Shown piece after piece: positions 7,840 to 40,105 of a stretch of 42,667 bases of DNA (its first letter is position 1; each line of letters opens with the position of its first letter). The position numbers were made by a program, and so were the translations under genes. Source of the DNA: a virus. Location of the stretch: IMG/VR virus record IMGVR_UViG_3300009100_000021, positions 1-42,667 of that record; one strand, 5' to 3'. Under the pieces are notes generated by a model. That model did not search any database. It saw nothing but the letters and a program-made list of their open reading frames with translations, and had not been told where the DNA came from.

Positions 7840-7989
7840 ATGACCGACGAGAAGCCTCTCGACGATGGAGATGATTTTGAAATCGACGAGTTCGAGGACG
7901 AGCACCAATGGCTCGATGCGTGCGCGAGCTGCGGGGCTGACGTTGATGACGAGGACATTACATGCTGGTTTTGTGGTGAAGATCTATGA
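7840..7989 (+). CDS. small acidic zinc-ribbon protein (49 aa)
   Basis: The N-terminus is highly acidic (KPLDDGDDFEIDEFEDE). The C-terminus has two knuckles, CASCG and CWFCG, spaced for one zinc. It overlaps the PAPS-reductase-like gene by ATGA and could be its partner or an adaptor; that is inference. Confidence 0.6.
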   Translation: MTDEKPLDDGDDFEIDEFEDEHQWLDACASCGADVDDEDITCWFCGEDL

Positions 7990-8765
7990 GTGAGCAGCGT
8001 ATGGCCGAACAGCGCGTCGTTAGCTGGTTCTCGTGTGGCGATGCCTCAGCCGTCGCATGCGCGATGGCACTGAAGAAATACATCAATCGGGACATTGTGA
8101 TCGCGAGAATTGTGTTAACCAGCGAGCACCCAGACAATGATCGCTTCGCCGCGGACTGCTCACGCCTGTACGACCGCGAGATCGTCAATCTGATGAGCGC
8201 CGAGTATCGGGATACCTGGGACGTGTGGGAGCGCCGTCGGTACATTGCAGGCATTGCCGGTGCGCCCTGTACTACCGAACTAAAGAAGGCCGTTCGTTTC
8301 GCGTTCCAGCGCGCTGACGACCTACACATCTTCGGGTTTACTTCGGAAGAACGTAGCCGCGCGGAGCGCTTCCGCCGATCCAACCCAGAGCTATTCGTTG
8401 AGTTTCCGCTTATCGATGCTGGTTTGGGGAAAGCCGACTGCCATGCACTGATTCGCGCGGCTGGCATTGAGTTGCCGGCGATGTACCGCCTCGGCTTCGA
8501 CAATAACAACTGTATCGGCTGCCCCAAGGGCGGGGCTGGCTACTGGAACATGATACGGCGACATTTTCCAGACACGTTCAGTCGCATGGCGACGCTGTCG
8601 CGCGAACTCGGCGCCAGGCTCGTACGCCAGAATGGCGAGCGCATATTTCTCGACGAGCTCCATCCGGAGACAGGTCGCCAGAAGGACGAAATTGCAATCG
8701 ACTGTTCGCCATTCTGCGCAAGTGCTGCTGAGACCTTAGATCTTCACGTAGGAGACGTCGCATGA
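7986..8765 (+). CDS. phage PAPS-reductase-like (PP-loop) protein
   Basis: A 259-residue protein of the adenylylsulfate/PAPS reductase superfamily. The N-terminus SWFSCGDASAVACAMALKKY is a PP-loop variant (usually SGGxxS). RDTWDVWERRRYIAGIAGAPCTTELKK is the substrate-side segment, and GAPC supplies a cysteine. FGFTSEERSRAERFR and the C-terminal NNNCIGCPKGGAGYWNMIRR complete the fold, with CIGC suggesting an iron-sulfur or metal site. Phage homologues are common but rarely tested. Sulfur assimilation, DNA phosphorothioation-like chemistry or tRNA modification are all possible. It overlaps both neighbours by ATGA. Confidence 0.78.
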   Translation: MSEQRMAEQRVVSWFSCGDASAVACAMALKKYINRDIVIARIVLTSEHPDNDRFAADCSRLYDREIVNLMSAEYRDTWDVWERRRYIAGIAGAPCTTELKKAVRFAFQRADDLHIFGFTSEERSRAERFRRSNPELFVEFPLIDAGLGKADCHALIRAAGIELPAMYRLGFDNNNCIGCPKGGAGYWNMIRRHFPDTFSRMATLSRELGARLVRQNGERIFLDELHPETGRQKDEIAIDCSPFCASAAETLDLHVGDVA

Positions 8766-11358: not shown

Positions 11359-11455
11359 GCTGAGTTGATCGGATCAGAGTAATAATTGAATGCTCACCGT
11401 TCAGAAAAACAGTGGAATCTTGCGCACGGAAGGATTCAAACGAAGAATCCTTCGT

Positions 11456-12247
11456 ATGGCTGCACAAATACTCACGCTTGATCAGATCCATTGGATTCGC
11501 ACGAGCGGTCTCACCGATGCTCATATGGCGCGAACCCTTGGCGTTGGCTATGTGACTGTTCACAACGCGCGGCGAGGAATCACTTTCAAAGATCATCCGA
11601 CCCCACCGGATACAGCGCTGCGCAAACCAGGCGGAAAGGGTGGCGGATCTTTGGCTCTCAAGAGCACAAAGAATTGTGGTGTTCGCGCCCTGACAGACGA
11701 CGCCGTCCACTTCATACGAACTAGCGGGCTGCCAGACTCAATCCTGGCCACTATGTACGATGTGTCACGTGCGCTGGTTACAAGAACCAGACGGGGTCTC
11801 GCGCGACAAGACCACTCCACGCCACCAGACCTGTTTCCGAGGACACGGGGGCAGCATACCTATGCTGGCAACGAGGCCCTTCTAAGGGCGCCGACAATCG
11901 ACCTCGGATTCGAGCCGGCCAATCGAACCCTATTCGATCGCCTTCGCACGTGGTGCAGGATCGATACGGATGGCTGCTGGATCTGGACGGGATCAGTTAC
12001 CGGAAGCGAACCCCGTCCAAGCGGTCATCACGGCCGGACATCCATAGATGGCCATGCCGTCAGCACGCATCGCGCTATGTGGATCGCCGTATACGGCGAG
12101 ATCCCGGATGGACTCTGCGTTTGCCATGAATGCGACAAGCCGCCCTGCATCCATCCATTGCATCTGTGGCTAGGAACACACTTGGACAACATGCGCGACT
12201 CGATAGAAAAGGGTCGTCACGTTAACGTACGGGGCCGACGCAAGTGA
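11456..12247 (+). CDS. HNH endonuclease with two tandem HTH modules
   Basis: A 263-residue protein if started at 11456; an in-frame ATG at 11390 would add 22 residues. Two repeats of a ~45-residue HTH occur: QIHWIRTSGLTDAHMARTLG and AVHFIRTSGLPDSILATMYD, each ending with an RRG and an H...TPPD tail. The C-terminal 100 residues are HNH_3: CWIWTGSV, then HRAMWIAVYGEIPDGLCVCH, then CIHPLHLWLGTHLDNMRDSI. HTH plus HNH is typical of site-specific homing nucleases. A third copy of the HTH module lies just past attP. A 9-bp hairpin (11429-11453) sits just before the 11456 start. Confidence 0.8.
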   Translation: MAAQILTLDQIHWIRTSGLTDAHMARTLGVGYVTVHNARRGITFKDHPTPPDTALRKPGGKGGGSLALKSTKNCGVRALTDDAVHFIRTSGLPDSILATMYDVSRALVTRTRRGLARQDHSTPPDLFPRTRGQHTYAGNEALLRAPTIDLGFEPANRTLFDRLRTWCRIDTDGCWIWTGSVTGSEPRPSGHHGRTSIDGHAVSTHRAMWIAVYGEIPDGLCVCHECDKPPCIHPLHLWLGTHLDNMRDSIEKGRHVNVRGRRK

Positions 12248-21039: not shown

Positions 21040-21957
21040 TCAAGACTTCCTCGGCGCATCCAGCGGCTTGCGCAACACGAGTGTCAATGCAGTGCAGCCG
21101 AAATCATCCTTCGGGAGATGGCGGAATTGCGGGTGAATCAGAGATAGATCAATCTCTTTTTTTGGCGCGATACGCTCCAAAATCTGAAAGCCGGCATCGG
21201 TAAACAGCCGGTCCCATTCGGACGCCTGCAATCGATTGATGTATTGCAGTTCGTTCTCGAACAATGTTTGCCAGACGCGATCAGAGTATCTCAGATACTG
21301 TTTCGAGCATGCGCTGCGGTCGTAATGAGCGAGATGATCATCGATGCCAATCTGGTGAATCATGCACGCTCCGGGCTCCAGCGTGCGATACATGTCGTTC
21401 ACCAGTGTATAGACACTGCCTCGCGGGACGTGTTCTAGGACGTGGAAGCTGATGATCGAATCGAAACTGCGGTCAGAGAATTGCGTGATCGCCCCCTTGG
21501 GGTGAATCACATATTCGAAATGGGTACGCTCGTACACGTCCTCCCAGTTGCGGGAGGTCGTGATCCGATCGAGCCGCGCGATAGTGTCAGCGCTCTCGCC
21601 CCGTGAGACCATCTCGTCGCGCAGCTTACGTGCGGTTGCTATCAGCCCCGCGAATTGACGGTTGTCCCAGATATCCAGGCCGGTAAGCTGCAGATCGAAG
21701 TACAGACCCGCGTACAGGGCGTACCAGTGCATCCATCCGGTTCCGAGCTCCAGTAGTCTATCACCGTGTTTGATGGCTCGATGCTTGCGAGCCAGAGCCA
21801 TCAGCAAGTCGCCACGCTCGATACGATAATTCAGACCAGGGGCACTTCGACGTCGTAGCTCGTTATACGAATTGCCCAACATTCGATAAAAACCGCGGGT
21901 TAACGCATTGGCTGAAAATGTTTTCAGCGCAAGTGCGGCCATGGTGTATTTGATCAT
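21040..21957 (-). CDS. class I SAM-dependent methyltransferase
   Basis: A 305-residue protein. Motif I is RLLELGTGWMHWYALYAGLY (about residues 68-87). LTGLDIWDN follows, and SFDSIISFHVLEHVPRGSVY is the post-II/IV region of methyltransferase-11 proteins. IHQIGIDDHLAHYDRSACSK and a C-terminal FTDAGFQILERIAP complete it. Such enzymes often modify sugars or lipids, so a role in altering host surface glycans or the phage glycan is possible. It is the last gene of the leftward region, ~120 bp from the next one, and may be expressed on its own as a lysogenic-conversion gene. Confidence 0.8.
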   Translation of the reverse strand: MIKYTMAALALKTFSANALTRGFYRMLGNSYNELRRRSAPGLNYRIERGDLLMALARKHRAIKHGDRLLELGTGWMHWYALYAGLYFDLQLTGLDIWDNRQFAGLIATARKLRDEMVSRGESADTIARLDRITTSRNWEDVYERTHFEYVIHPKGAITQFSDRSFDSIISFHVLEHVPRGSVYTLVNDMYRTLEPGACMIHQIGIDDHLAHYDRSACSKQYLRYSDRVWQTLFENELQYINRLQASEWDRLFTDAGFQILERIAPKKEIDLSLIHPQFRHLPKDDFGCTALTLVLRKPLDAPRKS

Positions 21958-30764: not shown

Positions 30765-31915
30765 TACTTCTTGCGCTTAATGGTGAAACCACTCAACTGC
30801 GTACTCTGGCCAACATTCAGCGCGGCCGGTGGAATGTCCACCCTCACCTGATCACCGAGCACATCCGAGGCGTTCAGCCCATTACTCTCTGCGATCTTTC
30901 GGTAACGCTCGCGGCGCTTGTCATCCAGTCCTTTCTGACCCTCGTACAGTTGCCCGGCCTTCTTGACGAAATCCGAGCGCTGCTCGGGCGCCAGCCGCTC
31001 ACCCTTAAGTATTTTGTTGTACTGAGCGGTCACGCGAGCAGGGATGCCGCCGGCGTTCTGTGCATTGGCAAACTCGCCCTCGCGCACGGTCGACCCCGGG
31101 TCGAGTGTCTTCATGTACGAGAAAATCAGCGCCAGATCACCGGCCGCTGACGGATCGCGCGATGCAGACAGAACAGACTGATACCCCTGCGTTGCGGTCT
31201 GGAAGTCCTTCGATTGACTGTCGTATTCCTTGCGCAAAGTCGTGGCGTTCTCGAACGCCTTCTCCGGCTTGCTCGCTTCCCCTTCCCGCTTGAGACGGGC
31301 TTGGTCCGCCTCGAACTTCTGTTTCTGACGAGTCTGGTCGGCCTCAAATGCTTGCTGGTCTTCGCGTGATTTGCTTTCCGCCTCGATGCGGGCAGTAGTG
31401 TCTGCATCGACCCGCTCCGGCAGTATCCCCGCCTGCGACCCCGACCGCGCCGCAACCTGCTCCGCAAGTCCGCGTACGTCATCGTCAGTCATGGAATCCC
31501 AATCGACTCCGGATTCCTTCAACTGCTGGATCAGTTGCGGCAACTGTGATTCTGCAAGTGCCTTGGGGGATTTGGACTGCAGAACGTATTGAGCGGTCGC
31601 GTAATTGCGCTTGGCATCTTCGACCCGCTTCTGTCGCGCAAGCTGGTTCTGCTGAACCTGAAATTGCCGGACCTGCATGGCCCGCTCAGGATCTGCCGCA
31701 TAGAGCGCCGCGAGATTGCCAGAGCCGCCCTGAAGATACGTTGCGAGCTCGTTGCGGAACTGCTGATCGCGCTGCATGCCTTGCTGGGCTTGCTGGAGTT
31801 GCATAGCGCGCAGTTGGTTCTCTTGGGCTGCGCTCTGCTGGCCCTGTTGGAACTGCTGGCCCTGCATATAGGCACCTACAGGGTTGAACTGGAGAATGTT
31901 GGGGAGTTCGTTCAT
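30764..31915 (-). CDS. DNA ejection protein at the P22 gp20 position
   Basis: A 383-residue protein. The N-terminal 90 residues are Gln-rich helices (MQGQQFQQGQQSAAQENQLR, then AMQLQQAQQGMQRDQQFRNE). Long charged coils follow (ESKSREDQQAFEADQTRQKQ). The C-terminal half has KTLDPGSTVREGEFANAQNA, a segment I recognise from podovirus ejection proteins. It would leave the capsid before or with DNA. It overlaps the HNH gene, which separates it from the gp7-like gene, by ATGA. Confidence 0.75.
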   Translation of the reverse strand: MNELPNILQFNPVGAYMQGQQFQQGQQSAAQENQLRAMQLQQAQQGMQRDQQFRNELATYLQGGSGNLAALYAADPERAMQVRQFQVQQNQLARQKRVEDAKRNYATAQYVLQSKSPKALAESQLPQLIQQLKESGVDWDSMTDDDVRGLAEQVAARSGSQAGILPERVDADTTARIEAESKSREDQQAFEADQTRQKQKFEADQARLKREGEASKPEKAFENATTLRKEYDSQSKDFQTATQGYQSVLSASRDPSAAGDLALIFSYMKTLDPGSTVREGEFANAQNAGGIPARVTAQYNKILKGERLAPEQRSDFVKKAGQLYEGQKGLDDKRRERYRKIAESNGLNASDVLGDQVRVDIPPAALNVGQSTQLSGFTIKRKK

Positions 31916-32469
31916 GGGCTAAGCCCTTCAAAACCAAGATGAGCCCATCGTTTTCCGTTGAGCGTCTTGCTGACATGCGAGCTATCAACGCCGAATCTCT
32001 CGGCAATCTGTCGCTGCCGTGCTCCTGCACGTCGCATCTCGAACATCGCTCGAATATCCGTGCTTGTCAGGCGCGCCGTCCATTGGCGCTCACCTTGATT
32101 ACTTGTCCCATGCGCTGCTCTATCTCGCTGGTTTGACGAACGTGTATCCCATCGCAGATTACTCAAGCAATTGTTTGCTGGATTACGATCCGGATAGTGG
32201 CAGCCTTCCATCCCCGCTGGACATGGCCCCACGAATGCAGCAAGGACGAGTCGATGAACGAGTCGGTACTCTACGCGTGCGTCACGATTCAATAAGACCA
32301 CGCGGTATGGGATCTGTTTTCCCAACACCCTCAGTTTTACGATGCGCTCTTTCCATGTGCGGCCCTGCGCATCAGTTCTCCGGAGACGCCTCACACGACC
32401 ATGAGTACTGACTTCGTACAAGCCTTCCCAGCTTGGTACTGGCGCCCACTGCTCTGTGTCAGTCGCCAC
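31912..32469 (-). CDS. free-standing HNH homing endonuclease (NUMOD4 type)
   Basis: A 185-residue protein with a GTG start at 32469. EQWAPVPSWEGLYEVSTHGR is the NUMOD4 DNA-binding motif. HRLVLAAFVGPCPAGMEGCH, then RNPANNCLSNLRWDTRSSNQ, is the HNH core. ARLTSTDIRAMFEMRRAG ... QIAERFGVDSSHVSKTLNGK is a C-terminal HTH. It sits between two ejection-protein genes that are adjacent in P22, starting next to one stop and overlapping the next start. That is the usual placement of mobile homing genes. Confidence 0.88.
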   Translation of the reverse strand: MATDTEQWAPVPSWEGLYEVSTHGRVRRLRRTDAQGRTWKERIVKLRVLGKQIPYRVVLLNRDARVEYRLVHRLVLAAFVGPCPAGMEGCHYPDRNPANNCLSNLRWDTRSSNQRDRAAHGTSNQGERQWTARLTSTDIRAMFEMRRAGARQRQIAERFGVDSSHVSKTLNGKRWAHLGFEGLSP

Positions 32470-35611: not shown

Positions 35612-36025
35612 TCACCCGGTGCTCACATTGAACCGCTCACCCCGATCTGCGGGCTCAGGAACATCCAGCTGCATCGTCACCTCTTTCGCGGTGATCTTGT
35701 CGATGACGGCCACCCCCTTCTCGTTCACCGCTACGAGCTCCTGCGGCACGCTCGCGCCGAATGACGGTGCAATCAGAATGGCCAGGCTCGAATAGATGCC
35801 CGTGAGCGCGCCATCCGGCACGGTCATCGTGTCCGTAACCGTGCCGATCGGGATGTATCCGAGGTTCCGCCCATCCGCTTCCCACAGCGCCATCATCTGG
35901 TTCAAGCGACGAATACACACCGACTGCTGATCCGCGGTCGGGGTCTGTGTCTCGCGGATGACATTGAGGGCAACAAGCGCGTCCTTGATGACCTGCGACG
36001 CGGCTTGCGAGGTGGGAGTGGCCAT
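35612..36025 (-). CDS. tail accessory factor, P22 gp4-like
   Basis: A 137-residue protein; P22 gp4 is 166. IKDALVALNVIRETQTPTAD, then CIRRLNQMMALWEADGRNLG, then YSSLAILIAPSFGASVPQEL matches the gp4 family, which binds under the portal and extends the tail. The gp4 of P22 also has muramidase activity; no catalytic residue can be assigned here. The upstream head-fibre-like stop overlaps its start. Confidence 0.82.
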   Translation of the reverse strand: MATPTSQAASQVIKDALVALNVIRETQTPTADQQSVCIRRLNQMMALWEADGRNLGYIPIGTVTDTMTVPDGALTGIYSSLAILIAPSFGASVPQELVAVNEKGVAVIDKITAKEVTMQLDVPEPADRGERFNVSTG

Positions 36026-36279
36026 TACGAGCTAGCGAGAATCCCCAGCGATTCCAGCGACGCGAGAAGTGTGTTGAACTTCGTGCGCAACGAGTCCAGA
36101 TCCGTCGTGAGCGCGGTGGTCGTGGATGTCGTGGTCGTCGTATTCGTGGCATCCGCAATGGTCGCGGGCTGAGTCGTCGGCGTGGTGCCGAAGAACCCGG
36201 CCGTTCCGCCTGTGCGATGCTGCAAAACGTCTGCTTTGACGTGTGACGTGGCGCAGCCGAAACTTTCTTCTCGTGGCAT
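36025..36279 (-). CDS. head-fibre/decoration-like protein, copy 1
   Basis: An 84-residue protein with AGGAG before the ATG. Order: a short variable N-terminus (KADVLQHRTGG), GFFGTTPTTQPATIADATN, a linker of only Thr/Ser/Ala/Leu (TTTTTSTTTALTT), then a coiled-coil end (LDSLRTKFNTLLASLESLGI). The C-terminal ~55 residues are nearly identical to copy 2 at 38594. The helical-tail layout is like trimeric phage head-fibre anchors. The Thr/Ser linker is a plausible O-glycosylation target for the neighbouring glycosyltransferases. Confidence 0.65.
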   Translation of the reverse strand: MPREESFGCATSHVKADVLQHRTGGTAGFFGTTPTTQPATIADATNTTTTTSTTTALTTDLDSLRTKFNTLLASLESLGILASS

Positions 36280-36295
36280 AAAGATCTCCTAGAAG

Positions 36296-36769
36296 TTAAA
36301 GCCGTTCCTCGAAGGCATGTGCAATTCTTCGATCATTGCGAATCCGAGTTTGCGATGCGCTCTTGCATGTCTTGCAGAATCGCCTTCGCGTCCTCGGGTT
36401 GAAGTAAAGATTTTCACCGGCGTACTCGTGCCCAGCCGGGCAGTGTGTTTTAGCGACACGGCCGCGCACGTACTTGTTTCGGTTGCTATGCTGCTCCTCT
36501 TGAGTCGCCCACCGGCAGTTTCCGGGCTCATAGTTGCCATCCTTGTTTGGGTAGCGATCAAGTGTTTTGCCCTCTGGTCTCTGCCCCATGTCCGCAAGAA
36601 AATTCTCGAACGACTCGACCCATCGATCACATACCTTGATTCCACGCCCGCCATACAGATAGAACTTTTTGTAGTTCGGATTAAGGCAACGCAGCTTCAT
36701 CGCGCTCCAACTTTGATAGGTCGGGGAGCGCTTGGTCCGAGTGTTATGTCCGTGCCGCCAATCACTCAT
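36296..36769 (-). CDS. HNH homing endonuclease
   Basis: A 157-residue protein. RSPTYQSWSAMKLRCLNPNY, then FYLYGGRGIKVCDRWVESFE, then FLADMGQRPEGKTLDRYPNK and NYEPGNCRWATQEEQ is the AP2/HNH-type endonuclease found in many phages. The C-terminus adds a ribbon (THCPAGHEYAGENLYFN, then RRRFCKTCKSAS). It overlaps the first glycosyltransferase by ATGA. A mobile gene sitting inside the structural operon. Confidence 0.87.
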   Translation of the reverse strand: MSDWRHGHNTRTKRSPTYQSWSAMKLRCLNPNYKKFYLYGGRGIKVCDRWVESFENFLADMGQRPEGKTLDRYPNKDGNYEPGNCRWATQEEQHSNRNKYVRGRVAKTHCPAGHEYAGENLYFNPRTRRRFCKTCKSASQTRIRNDRRIAHAFEERL

Positions 36770-37350
36770 CGAGTGGCAGCCTCCTCCGAGTAGTTACCGC
36801 GCCATTCGTGCGGCCCGGAGTGAGTAATGGTGATGTTGGGTTCTGCCCAGATGCGACCACCGGACTTGCGGTATTCGCGGCAGAACCATGCGTCCTCGCC
36901 CATGAATCGCGGGCCTTCGTACCCCGCATCAAAAGCTCGGGGCATGCTCTCAAGTACATTCCGGCGGATGCGAAGCAGCGCGGTGCCGATGTACGAACAC
37001 TCAAGTAACTCGCCTTCCTTGCCGATCACGCGCGCATTCCACTCACGCGGATACTTGCGACGCGGACAGATCGCTCCGATTACATCGACATCCCGCATCA
37101 ACATTTGCAGGAATCCGCCCGTCTCCCACCCCATGTCATCATCGATGAACACGAGGTCAGTGCAGTCTGAGTCGAGAAACTCGCCGGCCAACTCATTGCG
37201 CGCACACTGAATGAAGTTCGCGAACGAAAGCGCGGACCATTGAAAGCTGATGCCCGCCAGCGTCAACGCTACTGCCGTCTCGATCATCGAGCGCGTGAAT
37301 GCGACCGATGTCGACCCGGTCAGGCACGGCGTGCAGACACGAACTTTCAT
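36766..37350 (-). CDS. GT-A glycosyltransferase (family 2-like)
   Basis: A 194-residue protein. VRVCTPCLTGSTSVAFTRSM opens a GT-A fold. ARNELAGEFLDSDCTDLVFI followed by DDDMGW gives the DxD metal/nucleotide-sugar motif (~67-72). DVDVIGAICPRRKYP, then CSYIGTALLRIRRNVLESMP, and FMGEDAWFCREYRKSGGRIW with a late THSGPHEW complete the family pattern. It would transfer a sugar from a nucleotide donor to an unknown acceptor. It overlaps both neighbours by ATGA, tying it to the glycosyltransferase-methyltransferase fusion upstream. Confidence 0.85.
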   Translation of the reverse strand: MKVRVCTPCLTGSTSVAFTRSMIETAVALTLAGISFQWSALSFANFIQCARNELAGEFLDSDCTDLVFIDDDMGWETGGFLQMLMRDVDVIGAICPRRKYPREWNARVIGKEGELLECSYIGTALLRIRRNVLESMPRAFDAGYEGPRFMGEDAWFCREYRKSGGRIWAEPNITITHSGPHEWRGNYSEEAATR

Positions 37351-38597
37351 TGCACCACGCCGAATGGGCGCATCGCCTCAAACACTGAGAGCCTGCGTCC
37401 AGCGCTTGCGCAGTACTCGTCCACCGCATCCCGTGTGTCCACGTGCGCGATGTCATCCACGATGATGGGAGCGCGTGATATCTCATTCGTCATGAGGCGG
37501 AACAATCCGTTGCGTCCAGTTTTTCGTGGCGGGCCATCGCACAGAACGAGCCCGTAGTTCTCCCGCGGTGCATCCGCGTACCACTCGAATCCGCCATGGT
37601 CCTTCACTTCGGTGAGATGCACGCGGACATTTGTAAGCCCGTTATCCCGCGCGAGCCGGTCTATACGGGATGCCCATGTCGGTGAAGACTCCAATGCATA
37701 CACCGGCTGGTCAGTGGACGCTGCAAGACAAAGCGTTGACAGGCCAGAGCCGCATTCGAGGATCGGGCCTTTGGACTGCCTAGCAAGCAAACTGGTCGCG
37801 TACAGCCCTTCCGGTGACAGCGCCCAGTTGTTATGCCAGACGTTGTACATCTCCAGGAACGTTGCGGCGTCCGCTCGGTTTTCTCGGATTGCCCGAATGC
37901 CATCTGGAATGGCTACATCCTTACGCCAGAAGTGACCGAGACATCCTTGCCAGAGTTTCTGGCCCATGTGGCCGAGCTGCATGCTCGGGTCTACGTAGAC
38001 TCTGAATCCCGCCTCACGAGCCTTTCGACAAAACTCGTAATCGCCGCCACGGCGAGACAAGCCCTTGAGCGTGCGCTCGAAGAGCACCGGAATCAGCATG
38101 CGTCCGTAACCGTCTTCACGACTTCGATGCTGTGGCACGGTGTCGTAGAGCTTCTCGAACACCCTGCGACGAATCTTGAGGAATCCCGTGGGAACTCCTG
38201 CCACTTCGACACAGCCGTCCGATTCCGCCCAGCGCTCACCGGGAAGCGGTGCGACAGGGTAATCCTCGTCATCGTTCTTCAGCGGATAGATACCCGCGAC
38301 GATGTCCCGGTCGTGCTCGATCAGCTTCTTGAGGTCGCAGTCGAGCCACGTCACATCCCCGTCGATGAATATCAGTTCGTCACAGTCGCTCTCAAGGAAG
38401 TCCCGCACCAGCCGGTTGCGCGAATCGTCAATGTGACAATTGCCGCTGAAGACTTCCAGGTCCAGCCGATGCGGCAGATTGACCAGAGAGGAATGCAGGG
38501 ACGTGACGAAAGGCGCTGTAATACCTTCGTAGGCCGGCACGGCCAGGAAATACCCTTTTCCCGGCCGTGGCGACTTTACCAACTGGACGAAGCTCAC
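37347..38597 (-). CDS. glycosyltransferase-methyltransferase fusion
   Basis: A 416-residue protein with a GTG start. Residues 1-~230 form a GT-A domain: KGYFLAVPAYEGITAPFVTS, then SRNRLVRDFLESDCDELIFI with DGDVTW as DxD, then DIVAGIYPLKNDDEDYPVAP, VAGVPTGFLKIRRRVFEKLY and RRGGDYEFCRKAREAGFRVY. Residues ~265-416 form a Rossmann methyltransferase: GPILECGSGLSTLCLAAS (SAM-binding), VYALESSPTWASRIDRLA, then YGLVLCDGPPRKTGRNGL. It could add and then methylate a sugar. Coupled to the head-fibre copy 2 upstream (GTGA) and to the second glycosyltransferase downstream (ATGA). Confidence 0.85.
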   Translation of the reverse strand: MSFVQLVKSPRPGKGYFLAVPAYEGITAPFVTSLHSSLVNLPHRLDLEVFSGNCHIDDSRNRLVRDFLESDCDELIFIDGDVTWLDCDLKKLIEHDRDIVAGIYPLKNDDEDYPVAPLPGERWAESDGCVEVAGVPTGFLKIRRRVFEKLYDTVPQHRSREDGYGRMLIPVLFERTLKGLSRRGGDYEFCRKAREAGFRVYVDPSMQLGHMGQKLWQGCLGHFWRKDVAIPDGIRAIRENRADAATFLEMYNVWHNNWALSPEGLYATSLLARQSKGPILECGSGLSTLCLAASTDQPVYALESSPTWASRIDRLARDNGLTNVRVHLTEVKDHGGFEWYADAPRENYGLVLCDGPPRKTGRNGLFRLMTNEISRAPIIVDDIAHVDTRDAVDEYCASAGRRLSVFEAMRPFGVVQ

Positions 38598-38830
38598 GAA
38601 CTTGCGAGCAGGCCCAGAGTTTCCAGCTTCGCCAGCAACGAGTTGAACTTGGTCCTCAGTGAATCGAGGTCCGTGGTCAACGCCGTTGTGGTCGAAGTTG
38701 TGGTGGTGGTGTTGGTCGCGTCGGCAATCGTTGCCTGTTGCGCGGCCGGAGTGGCTCCGAAGAAGCCGATCTTCGTGTTGGCGAACTGCACGCCGTCCGC
38801 ATGCCCGTCGCCGATCTGTTGTGCTGCCAT
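38594..38830 (-). CDS. head-fibre/decoration-like protein, copy 2
   Basis: A 78-residue protein with GGAGGACAA before the ATG at 38830. A short N-terminus (AAQQIGDGHADGVQFANTKI) precedes GFFGATPAAQQATIADATN, the TTTTTSTTTALTT linker and a coiled-coil end (LDSLRTKFNSLLAKLETLGL). The C-terminal region differs from copy 1 by only a few conservative changes, while the DNA has drifted at many silent positions, so both copies appear under selection. It lies directly after the coat gene, as decoration proteins often do. Confidence 0.65.
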   Translation of the reverse strand: MAAQQIGDGHADGVQFANTKIGFFGATPAAQQATIADATNTTTTTSTTTALTTDLDSLRTKFNSLLAKLETLGLLASS

Positions 38831-38887: not shown

Positions 38888-40105
38888 TCAGCCGTCTGCG
38901 TGGATGCGAGAGGCCAGTTGCGGGTACTGGGCGACGTAGCCAAACAGCACGTCGATACGGCAGGGCATCTGGTCGTTGTTGATGTCAAACGCGCGCACAA
39001 TGCGCATGCTGACGCCGTCGAAGACCTCCCGGGCCGCAAAGTCCACACCGTCCGGCAGGATCAGATCCGCCGTTGCCACGGTGAACGCGCTCTTGTGGTA
39101 CACGAGAGAGCTGTTGATAAGCCCCGCGTTGCCCGCGGCAAGCTTCGAGACCGCCCCGGCGTTGGTCGGATAGCCGGATACGTTCTGAAGCGCCCCGGAG
39201 ACGACAATCGGCGGGCTGATGGACAGGCTCGTGGCGTTCGCGCCCGAGTTCGCCGTCACAACGAACTGCTGCAACACGCCCGTGCTGACCTTCGTCTCCG
39301 GATGAACACGGAAACAGCCGGCGAACGTGATGACATCGCCCGCGAGGAACGTGGTCGTTCCGGTGTCCACCGTGATCGTTGCGCCGTCTTCGGTCGCCCC
39401 GTTCACGTTGTACAACGTGTCGCCCTGTGCCGCGGTGCCCGTGGTGTGATCCGTCACATGGGTGCTCGACATGAAGTCGAAACCCTGCGTACGGCCCATC
39501 ATGCCCTCGCGGTACTGCTGCTCGATCGCGGTGGACTGATGGAACAGGCCCTTGAGGGCATTCACCAGCTTCACCTCGTGAGTCGTGCTGAGCAGTGCCG
39601 AACGCTGACCATCGTCGGGCGCGAGATTGTCCTGCAGCTTCTGACGGCCCAAGCCAAAGGCCAACAGATCCACCGCCGTACCGTCCTGATCCACCAGGTT
39701 GTAAACCTGCTTCGTCAGTCCGGTCAGACACGTGGCCTCCATGTAGGACGCTACGGTCGCCATTGCCGGCTCGATGATGCGCTTGGAGAAGTCCTCCAGA
39801 TCGAGGGTCAGTTCCTTGGACGTGAAGTTCATGTCCACGCCCGCCTGATTGGTCACTTCCAACGTGACCGACTGCTCCTGCGTATCCTGCGCACTCATCG
39901 TCCGACCGGTACGGATGACGTACTTGTTCGGCAGGCGAATGCGCAACGAGCTACCGTTTCGCGATCCCTCACGGGCGCGGGCACCGCCTTCCTTGAAGGA
40001 ATCGTCGTACTGCTTGTCCACGCTTCCAAGGAACGTGGCCTTCTGATGCAGAATCCTGAGCGCTTCGCGCAGGATCACATCAGAGGTGAGAATTGTCTGA
40101 GTCAT
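38888..40105 (-). CDS. major coat protein, P22 gp5-like
   Basis: A 405-residue protein; P22 coat is 430. The N-terminus TSDVILREALRILHQKATFL, then NGSSLRIRLPNKYVIRTGRT, then AGVDMNFTSKELTLDLEDFS matches the P22-type HK97-fold coat, with its N-arm and extended loop. YREGMMGRTQGFDFMSSTHV, then a beta-rich domain (TTTFLAGDVITFAGCFRVHP), and RIDVLFGYVAQYPQLASRIH at the end follow the family. AGGAGCTGTAC gives a strong ribosome site for the most abundant virion protein. Confidence 0.9.
   Translation of the reverse strand: MTQTILTSDVILREALRILHQKATFLGSVDKQYDDSFKEGGARAREGSRNGSSLRIRLPNKYVIRTGRTMSAQDTQEQSVTLEVTNQAGVDMNFTSKELTLDLEDFSKRIIEPAMATVASYMEATCLTGLTKQVYNLVDQDGTAVDLLAFGLGRQKLQDNLAPDDGQRSALLSTTHEVKLVNALKGLFHQSTAIEQQYREGMMGRTQGFDFMSSTHVTDHTTGTAAQGDTLYNVNGATEDGATITVDTGTTTFLAGDVITFAGCFRVHPETKVSTGVLQQFVVTANSGANATSLSISPPIVVSGALQNVSGYPTNAGAVSKLAAGNAGLINSSLVYHKSAFTVATADLILPDGVDFAAREVFDGVSMRIVRAFDINNDQMPCRIDVLFGYVAQYPQLASRIHADG

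Follow-up and report, generated by a model that had tools for sequence, protein, structure and literature searches.

In a P22-like phage, two glycosyltransferase (GT) genes lie within the head operon, and the locus raises the question of what these enzymes glycosylate. Phage particles are usually regarded as unglycosylated. The window (the whole stretch of DNA analysed) is the virus record IMGVR_UViG_3300009100_000021, of 42,667 bases. It encodes an integrase, Erf/RecE recombination proteins and P22-like structural genes, from which the phage is probably a temperate podovirus. Its head module is that of the P22 coat family with gp4/gp10 order (PF11651, phrog_637, and phrog_578 for gp10/head closure). 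The segment between genes 5 and 4 is, on sequence evidence, quite likely a self-contained virion-glycosylation cassette, and the best-supported reading is that its enzymes act on the fibres of the phage itself and that the sugar is methylated.

The gene order described in the earlier note (coat, fibre A, a GT fused to a methyltransferase (GT-MT), the second GT (GT2), HNH and fibre B) was confirmed, with gp4 next and all genes on the minus strand (Table 1), as was coupling by overlap, with GTGA between fibre A and GT-MT and ATGA both between GT-MT and GT2 and between GT2 and HNH. Fibre B is preceded by its own AGGAG ribosome site and meets gp4 at TAATG. Where P22-like relatives lack the cassette, the coat gene is often followed directly by gp4 (gap about 25–110 bp), which identifies the coat-gp4 junction as the insertion site.

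Table 1. Features of the cassette and its borders in the window.
Feature	Position	Strand	Remarks
P22-type major coat protein	38888..40105	-	PF11651, 2.4e-26; upstream border of cassette
Fibre A, head-fibre-like	38594..38830	-	78 aa from ATG; phrog_6994 head fibre, 0.0038
GT-MT, GT-A glycosyltransferase fused to class I SAM methyltransferase	37347..38597	-	416 aa, GTG start
GT2, second GT-A glycosyltransferase	36766..37350	-	194 aa; phrog_1574, 5e-22
HNH endonuclease	36296..36769	-	157 aa; phrog_8790, 1e-38
Fibre B	36025..36279	-	84 aa; linker same as fibre A
gp4-type tail accessory/head-tail adaptor	35612..36025	-	phrog_637; downstream border of cassette

The HNH gene had been counted as a cassette member, which was not borne out: it is missing from relatives L004, L005, L006 and L007 and is therefore placed outside the cassette. 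A functional role in the cassette was rejected on this absence and on the presence of other HNH genes at other junctions (L005 carries a different gene, HNH_3/AP2, at another junction), and the gene is a probable homing-type intruder or passenger. Three separate HNH endonuclease genes were seen in the 42.7 kb phage (the others at 11390-12247 and 31912-32469), two of them inside the virion operon, and in neighbouring phages this operon has HNH genes at different junctions. Elsewhere in the window, a stand-alone Methyltransf_23 enzyme (21040-21957, minus strand), which could modify a sugar or the host surface, lies beyond the tailspike gene, and a PAPS-reductase-like gene (phrog_424; 7986-8765, plus strand) lies in the early region.

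Identification of the small proteins as head fibres is suggested by their position and by weak PHROG matches (phrog_6994, head fibre, E=0.004 and 0.002; phrog_12102, 0.0002). A match of fibre profile A3 to a major capsid protein (3jb5, 0.07) was judged to be chance; the A3 alignment was too diverse for use as a collection query. Across relatives the fibres consist of a head (…GF[FY]G.TP..Q), a variable Thr/Ser/Ala linker and a C-terminal heptad coil. The capsid-proximal head of fibre A ends in GFFGATPAAQ and is followed by the Thr-rich linker IADATNTTTTTSTTTALTTD and the coil. Fibre B has a different N-terminal head, an identical linker and a similar coil; IADATNTTTTTSTTTALTTDLDSLRTKFN was found exactly, at the protein level, in both. 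The differing heads of the two copies look as if made for two docking sites on the particle.

Twenty of the first 24 codons of IADATNTTTTTSTTTALTTDLDSLRTKFN differ between fibres A and B, all synonymously, so the identity is due neither to recent duplication nor to chance; gene conversion was rejected on the same count. In four phages (the window clade), both fibre copies have an identical 24-residue linker. Between A and B copies of this clade, pN/pS was 0.010/0.86 in the linker, where synonymous sites are saturated, 0.32/0.76 in the head-proximal segment and 0.18/0.57 in the coil, making the linker the most constrained of the three segments. Low-complexity linkers usually drift. The strong constraint would fit an acceptor recognised by an enzyme, with a structural stalk as the alternative.

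Mean Thr content was 0.24 in fibres accompanied by a fused methyltransferase and 0.145 in those without (p=3e-6; the fused group includes L014, which has a truncated GT that is 89% identical to the fusion). The motif TT[TA].?TT, picked after inspection of the data, occurred in 13/14 of the former and 0/43 of the latter. Thr-richness as a universal fibre feature was rejected: long Thr runs are found mainly in the fused GT-MT branch and are weak elsewhere, which means that the precise acceptor motif does not hold for all branches. Homologous phages with the enzymes and without Thr-rich proteins, which the earlier note had named as evidence against fibre glycosylation, were found in part: linkers in other branches are less Thr-rich, but the fibre is still present.

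GT2 is a paralogue of the GT half of GT-MT. Both match phrog_1574 (annotated as function unknown; 4e-21 for GT-MT), and the DxD motif is invariant in both alignments (D79/D81 in GT-MT, D70/D72 in GT2). The predicted GT2 model (AlphaFold, pLDDT 94.5) has a GT-A fold, with LH3, COLGALT1 and mimivirus R699 as nearest structures and POMGnT1 and Fringe further down. The top matches are remote (8–14% identity, TM about 0.5–0.6); such likenesses support a protein-type GT-A fold for the model but fix no substrate. The GT profile matches STIV A197 (2c0n, E=5e-5), as does the GT-MT profile search. GT relatives in phiM12, Cr30 and OC (L172, L173, L175) adjoin the sliding clamp and gp46/47 in T4-like replication modules. 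GT relatives in T4-like phages probably act in DNA hypermodification, and membership of the GT-A family therefore leaves the acceptor unfixed. The C-terminal half of GT-MT belongs to the class I methyltransferases (3cvo, 3e-7; O-methyltransferase folds), with a match to Methyltransf_24 (0.0011) below the cut-off. Among 80 loci with fibre and GT, 18 have a methyltransferase fused to the GT, and 23 have one as a separate gene next to the GT, belonging to another Pfam family. The recurrence of unrelated sugar-tailoring enzymes argues for a modified sugar as the product. At L089 (11213-13754), fibre and GT are accompanied by a DegT/DnrJ (DegT-type) aminotransferase and two hexapeptide transferases, possibly an amino-sugar version of the cassette.

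Two records from other samples (L002, L003), 100% identical over the proteins compared, are by sequence the window phage or a very close phage. Four further relatives (L004, L005, L006, L007) keep the order fibre, GT-MT, GT2, fibre, with GT-MT 65–67% identical. Bracketing of the enzymes by two fibres, as originally described, thus holds in the window clade; most relatives instead have one fibre or a tandem pair followed by one GT. One fibre with one GT-MT was found in L001, L010, L012, L016, L017, L135, L157 and L170, and two fibres with one GT-MT in L011. L170 is a contig of a Deltaproteobacteria MAG (OFTM19) with the order coat, fibre, GT-MT, gp4, and is the sole host hint found. Fibre and GT also occur behind an SU10-type major capsid protein (PF17236) in L030. 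In several HK97-type phages the capsid gene is followed by a protein of ~160 residues and then a related GT, and some of these loci add radical SAM and FkbM-type or other methyltransferases. L024 (6064-10639), L027 and L032 combine an HK97-type capsid, the ~160-aa protein (phrog_5707-like in L022), a radical SAM protein and a two-domain GT, with an FkbM-type methyltransferase in L024 and a similar gene in L032; this arrangement is possibly a related virion-decoration cassette of non-P22 phages. Searches of GenBank by tblastn (50,697 phage records; queries were two GTs, the GT-MT and fibres of the cassette kind) returned the cassette only from the metagenome-assembled MW202691 and MW202573. Fibre A gave no match among GenBank phages in tblastn, and no fibre+GT(+MT) module was found at the coat-gp4 junction among the cultured isolates searched.

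Conserved co-occurrence of fibre and GT in P22-like genomes, a search for which had been proposed, was found. Loci were recruited from IMG/VR by coat similarity only and clustered by coat identity. At 80% identity, 9 clusters had both genes, 1 the fibre only, 0 the GT only and 21 neither (Fisher p=5e-7); the association persisted at 95% (11/1/0/29, p=4e-9) and 65% (p=0.0014), these p-values being indicative since clusters are related by descent. Fibre-less coat clusters in this set never had a GT, and a single fibre-bearing phage (L054) had none recognisable. Separate recruitment by a fibre of another type (L118) gave a P22-type coat before the fibre and a GT after it in 45/45 loci (27 GT clusters at 80%, 11 at 60%). 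The near-obligate linkage of fibre and GT is real.

GT distance correlated with fibre linker+coil distance across 49 non-identical loci (Mantel r=0.58, p=0.0005, the minimum attainable with 2000 permutations; partial r=0.57 with fibre head and coat controlled). The correlation of GT with the fibre head was r=0.08 (p=0.09, 49 loci), and that with the coat dropped from 0.13 to 0.00 once the fibre C-part was controlled. Part of the co-variation may be linkage, because the fibre 3' end and the GT are neighbours. Linkage alone would tie the GT to gp4 too, yet r was only 0.21 for gp4 against 0.66 for the fibre C-part (same 33 loci). In 17 loci with a fibre-GT gap of >350 bp, r was 0.68 (head 0.37, coat 0.34). 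In at least two cases, similar heads were joined to unlike linkers and accompanied by GTs of different classes (L006 vs L134, with nearly identical coats; L118, L131 and L132 vs L135).

Three other targets were weighed. The GTs could hypermodify phage DNA (glycosylated pyrimidines), the fibre neighbourhood being incidental: GT homologues in the cultured phages phiM12, Cr30, OC and HTVC027P lie in replication modules amid clamp, endonuclease, primase and helicase genes. Cr30 encodes thymidylate synthase (TS) and Tet/JBP, and phiM12 encodes TS. Neither TS nor Tet/JBP, which would supply hydroxymethyl-pyrimidines, was found in ten cassette records (the window and nine others, some possibly fragments), although OC also has a GT in a replication module without either gene, so this test is not absolute and, as several records may be incomplete, absence is no proof for any single record. 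Given also that the cassette genes sit in a late structural operon, that the GT co-varies with the fibre linker and coil and that the nearest folds to GT2 are protein GTs, DNA hypermodification was rejected as highly improbable. Modification of the host surface (O-antigen or capsule), giving superinfection exclusion or receptor change, is likewise highly improbable. P22 and its kin do carry seroconverting gtr operons (PMC3688519, PMC2909390) and the window phage has an integrase, but no flippase or membrane GtrA/GtrB/GtrC was found among the cassette proteins scanned or in the part of the remaining window checked, the GT-A folds are of soluble type, the genes are coupled inside the late head operon, and the GT is tied to a capsid fibre in all 45 fibre-recruited loci.

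Rather unlikely, too, is glycosylation of the coat or another virion protein, with the fibre as a neighbouring decoration protein whose linker is conserved for structure. The Thr segment could serve as a structural stalk, the STIV coat is reported to be glycosylated (PMC10551542), and mycobacteriophage glycans are on capsid and tail-tube C-termini (PMC12619734, citing Freeman 2023); against this, the GT-coat correlation disappears when the fibre C-part is controlled, and P22-like coats lacking the fibre are never accompanied by a GT in the coat-recruited set.

Most likely, then, the head fibres of the phage are glycosylated, and probably methylated too, by its own enzymes. For the acceptor residues, sugar, reaction order and benefit of such fibre glycosylation, we infer the following course. 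Fibre proteins would be produced together with the coat, dock on the particle via the GF(F/Y)G head and oligomerise via the coiled coil at the C-terminus. The GT-A enzymes, whose genes are translationally coupled, would use the host's nucleotide sugars to O-glycosylate linker Thr/Ser. The fusion enzyme probably both attaches a sugar and methylates it or the one next to it; a second sugar is probably the work of GT2, which would add or extend it. Methylated glycans would then be presented on the particle surface, where they could plausibly change adsorption or hide the capsid. An evenly balanced proposal is that fibre, matched GT and sugar-tailoring enzyme form a mobile module of P22-like and some SU10- and HK97-type phages, each GT being specific for the linker of the adjacent fibre, with linker, coil and enzyme exchanged together behind a constant docking head to give interchangeable sugar coats. 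The same fibre-enzyme pair in dozens of uncultured relatives suggests a common, undescribed way of sugar-coating heads. If fibre glycosylation is correct, sugar-coated heads would be common in a large uncultured phage group that encodes enzyme-acceptor pairs side by side, co-expression would offer a direct test of acceptor specificity, and the cassettes would be a source of small enzymes able to O-glycosylate proteins and methylate sugars.

Among known systems, LH3, COLGALT1 and mimivirus R699 have the nearest folds, but act on collagen or collagen-like proteins. GT2 is also structurally similar to the mycobacteriophage protein Ardmore gp87 (Ardmore is presumably a cluster F phage). PHROG 6994 head fibres and 'B2 Dec Gp45' (9d82) resemble the fibres in coil and C-terminus, a weak and partial similarity. 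Virion glycosylation has been reported for mycobacteriophages, Che8 and others (Freeman et al. 2023, as cited in PMC11256854 and PMC12619734). Mycobacteriophages resemble the cassette in having phage-encoded GTs, the virion-protein sugars being known there and predicted from genes here; their acceptors are capsid and tail-tube C-termini, and the GTs of Maravista (Che8-like) lie near the genome 3' end. The cassette, unlike these, sets a dedicated fibre gene directly beside the GT gene, with the two coupled, between coat and gp4. For STIV, virion glycosylation has been proposed or suspected and a glycosylated coat reported (PMC10551542); A197 (PDB 2c0n) is, like GT2, a minimal viral GT-A enzyme (profile match E=5e-5), but belongs to an archaeal virus, with the coat as proposed acceptor (PMC10551542). 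The Manatee Spring metagenome phages MW202691 and MW202573 share the order coat-fibre-(MT)-GT-gp4, but have one fibre and one GT, annotated only as polysaccharide biosynthesis or A197-like; no published interpretation of their arrangement was found, nor, in partial literature coverage, a paper describing the cassette in P22-like phages. Virion glycosylation itself is known; what appears to be new is the dedicated fibre+GT(+MT) module that P22-like phages carry between coat and gp4.
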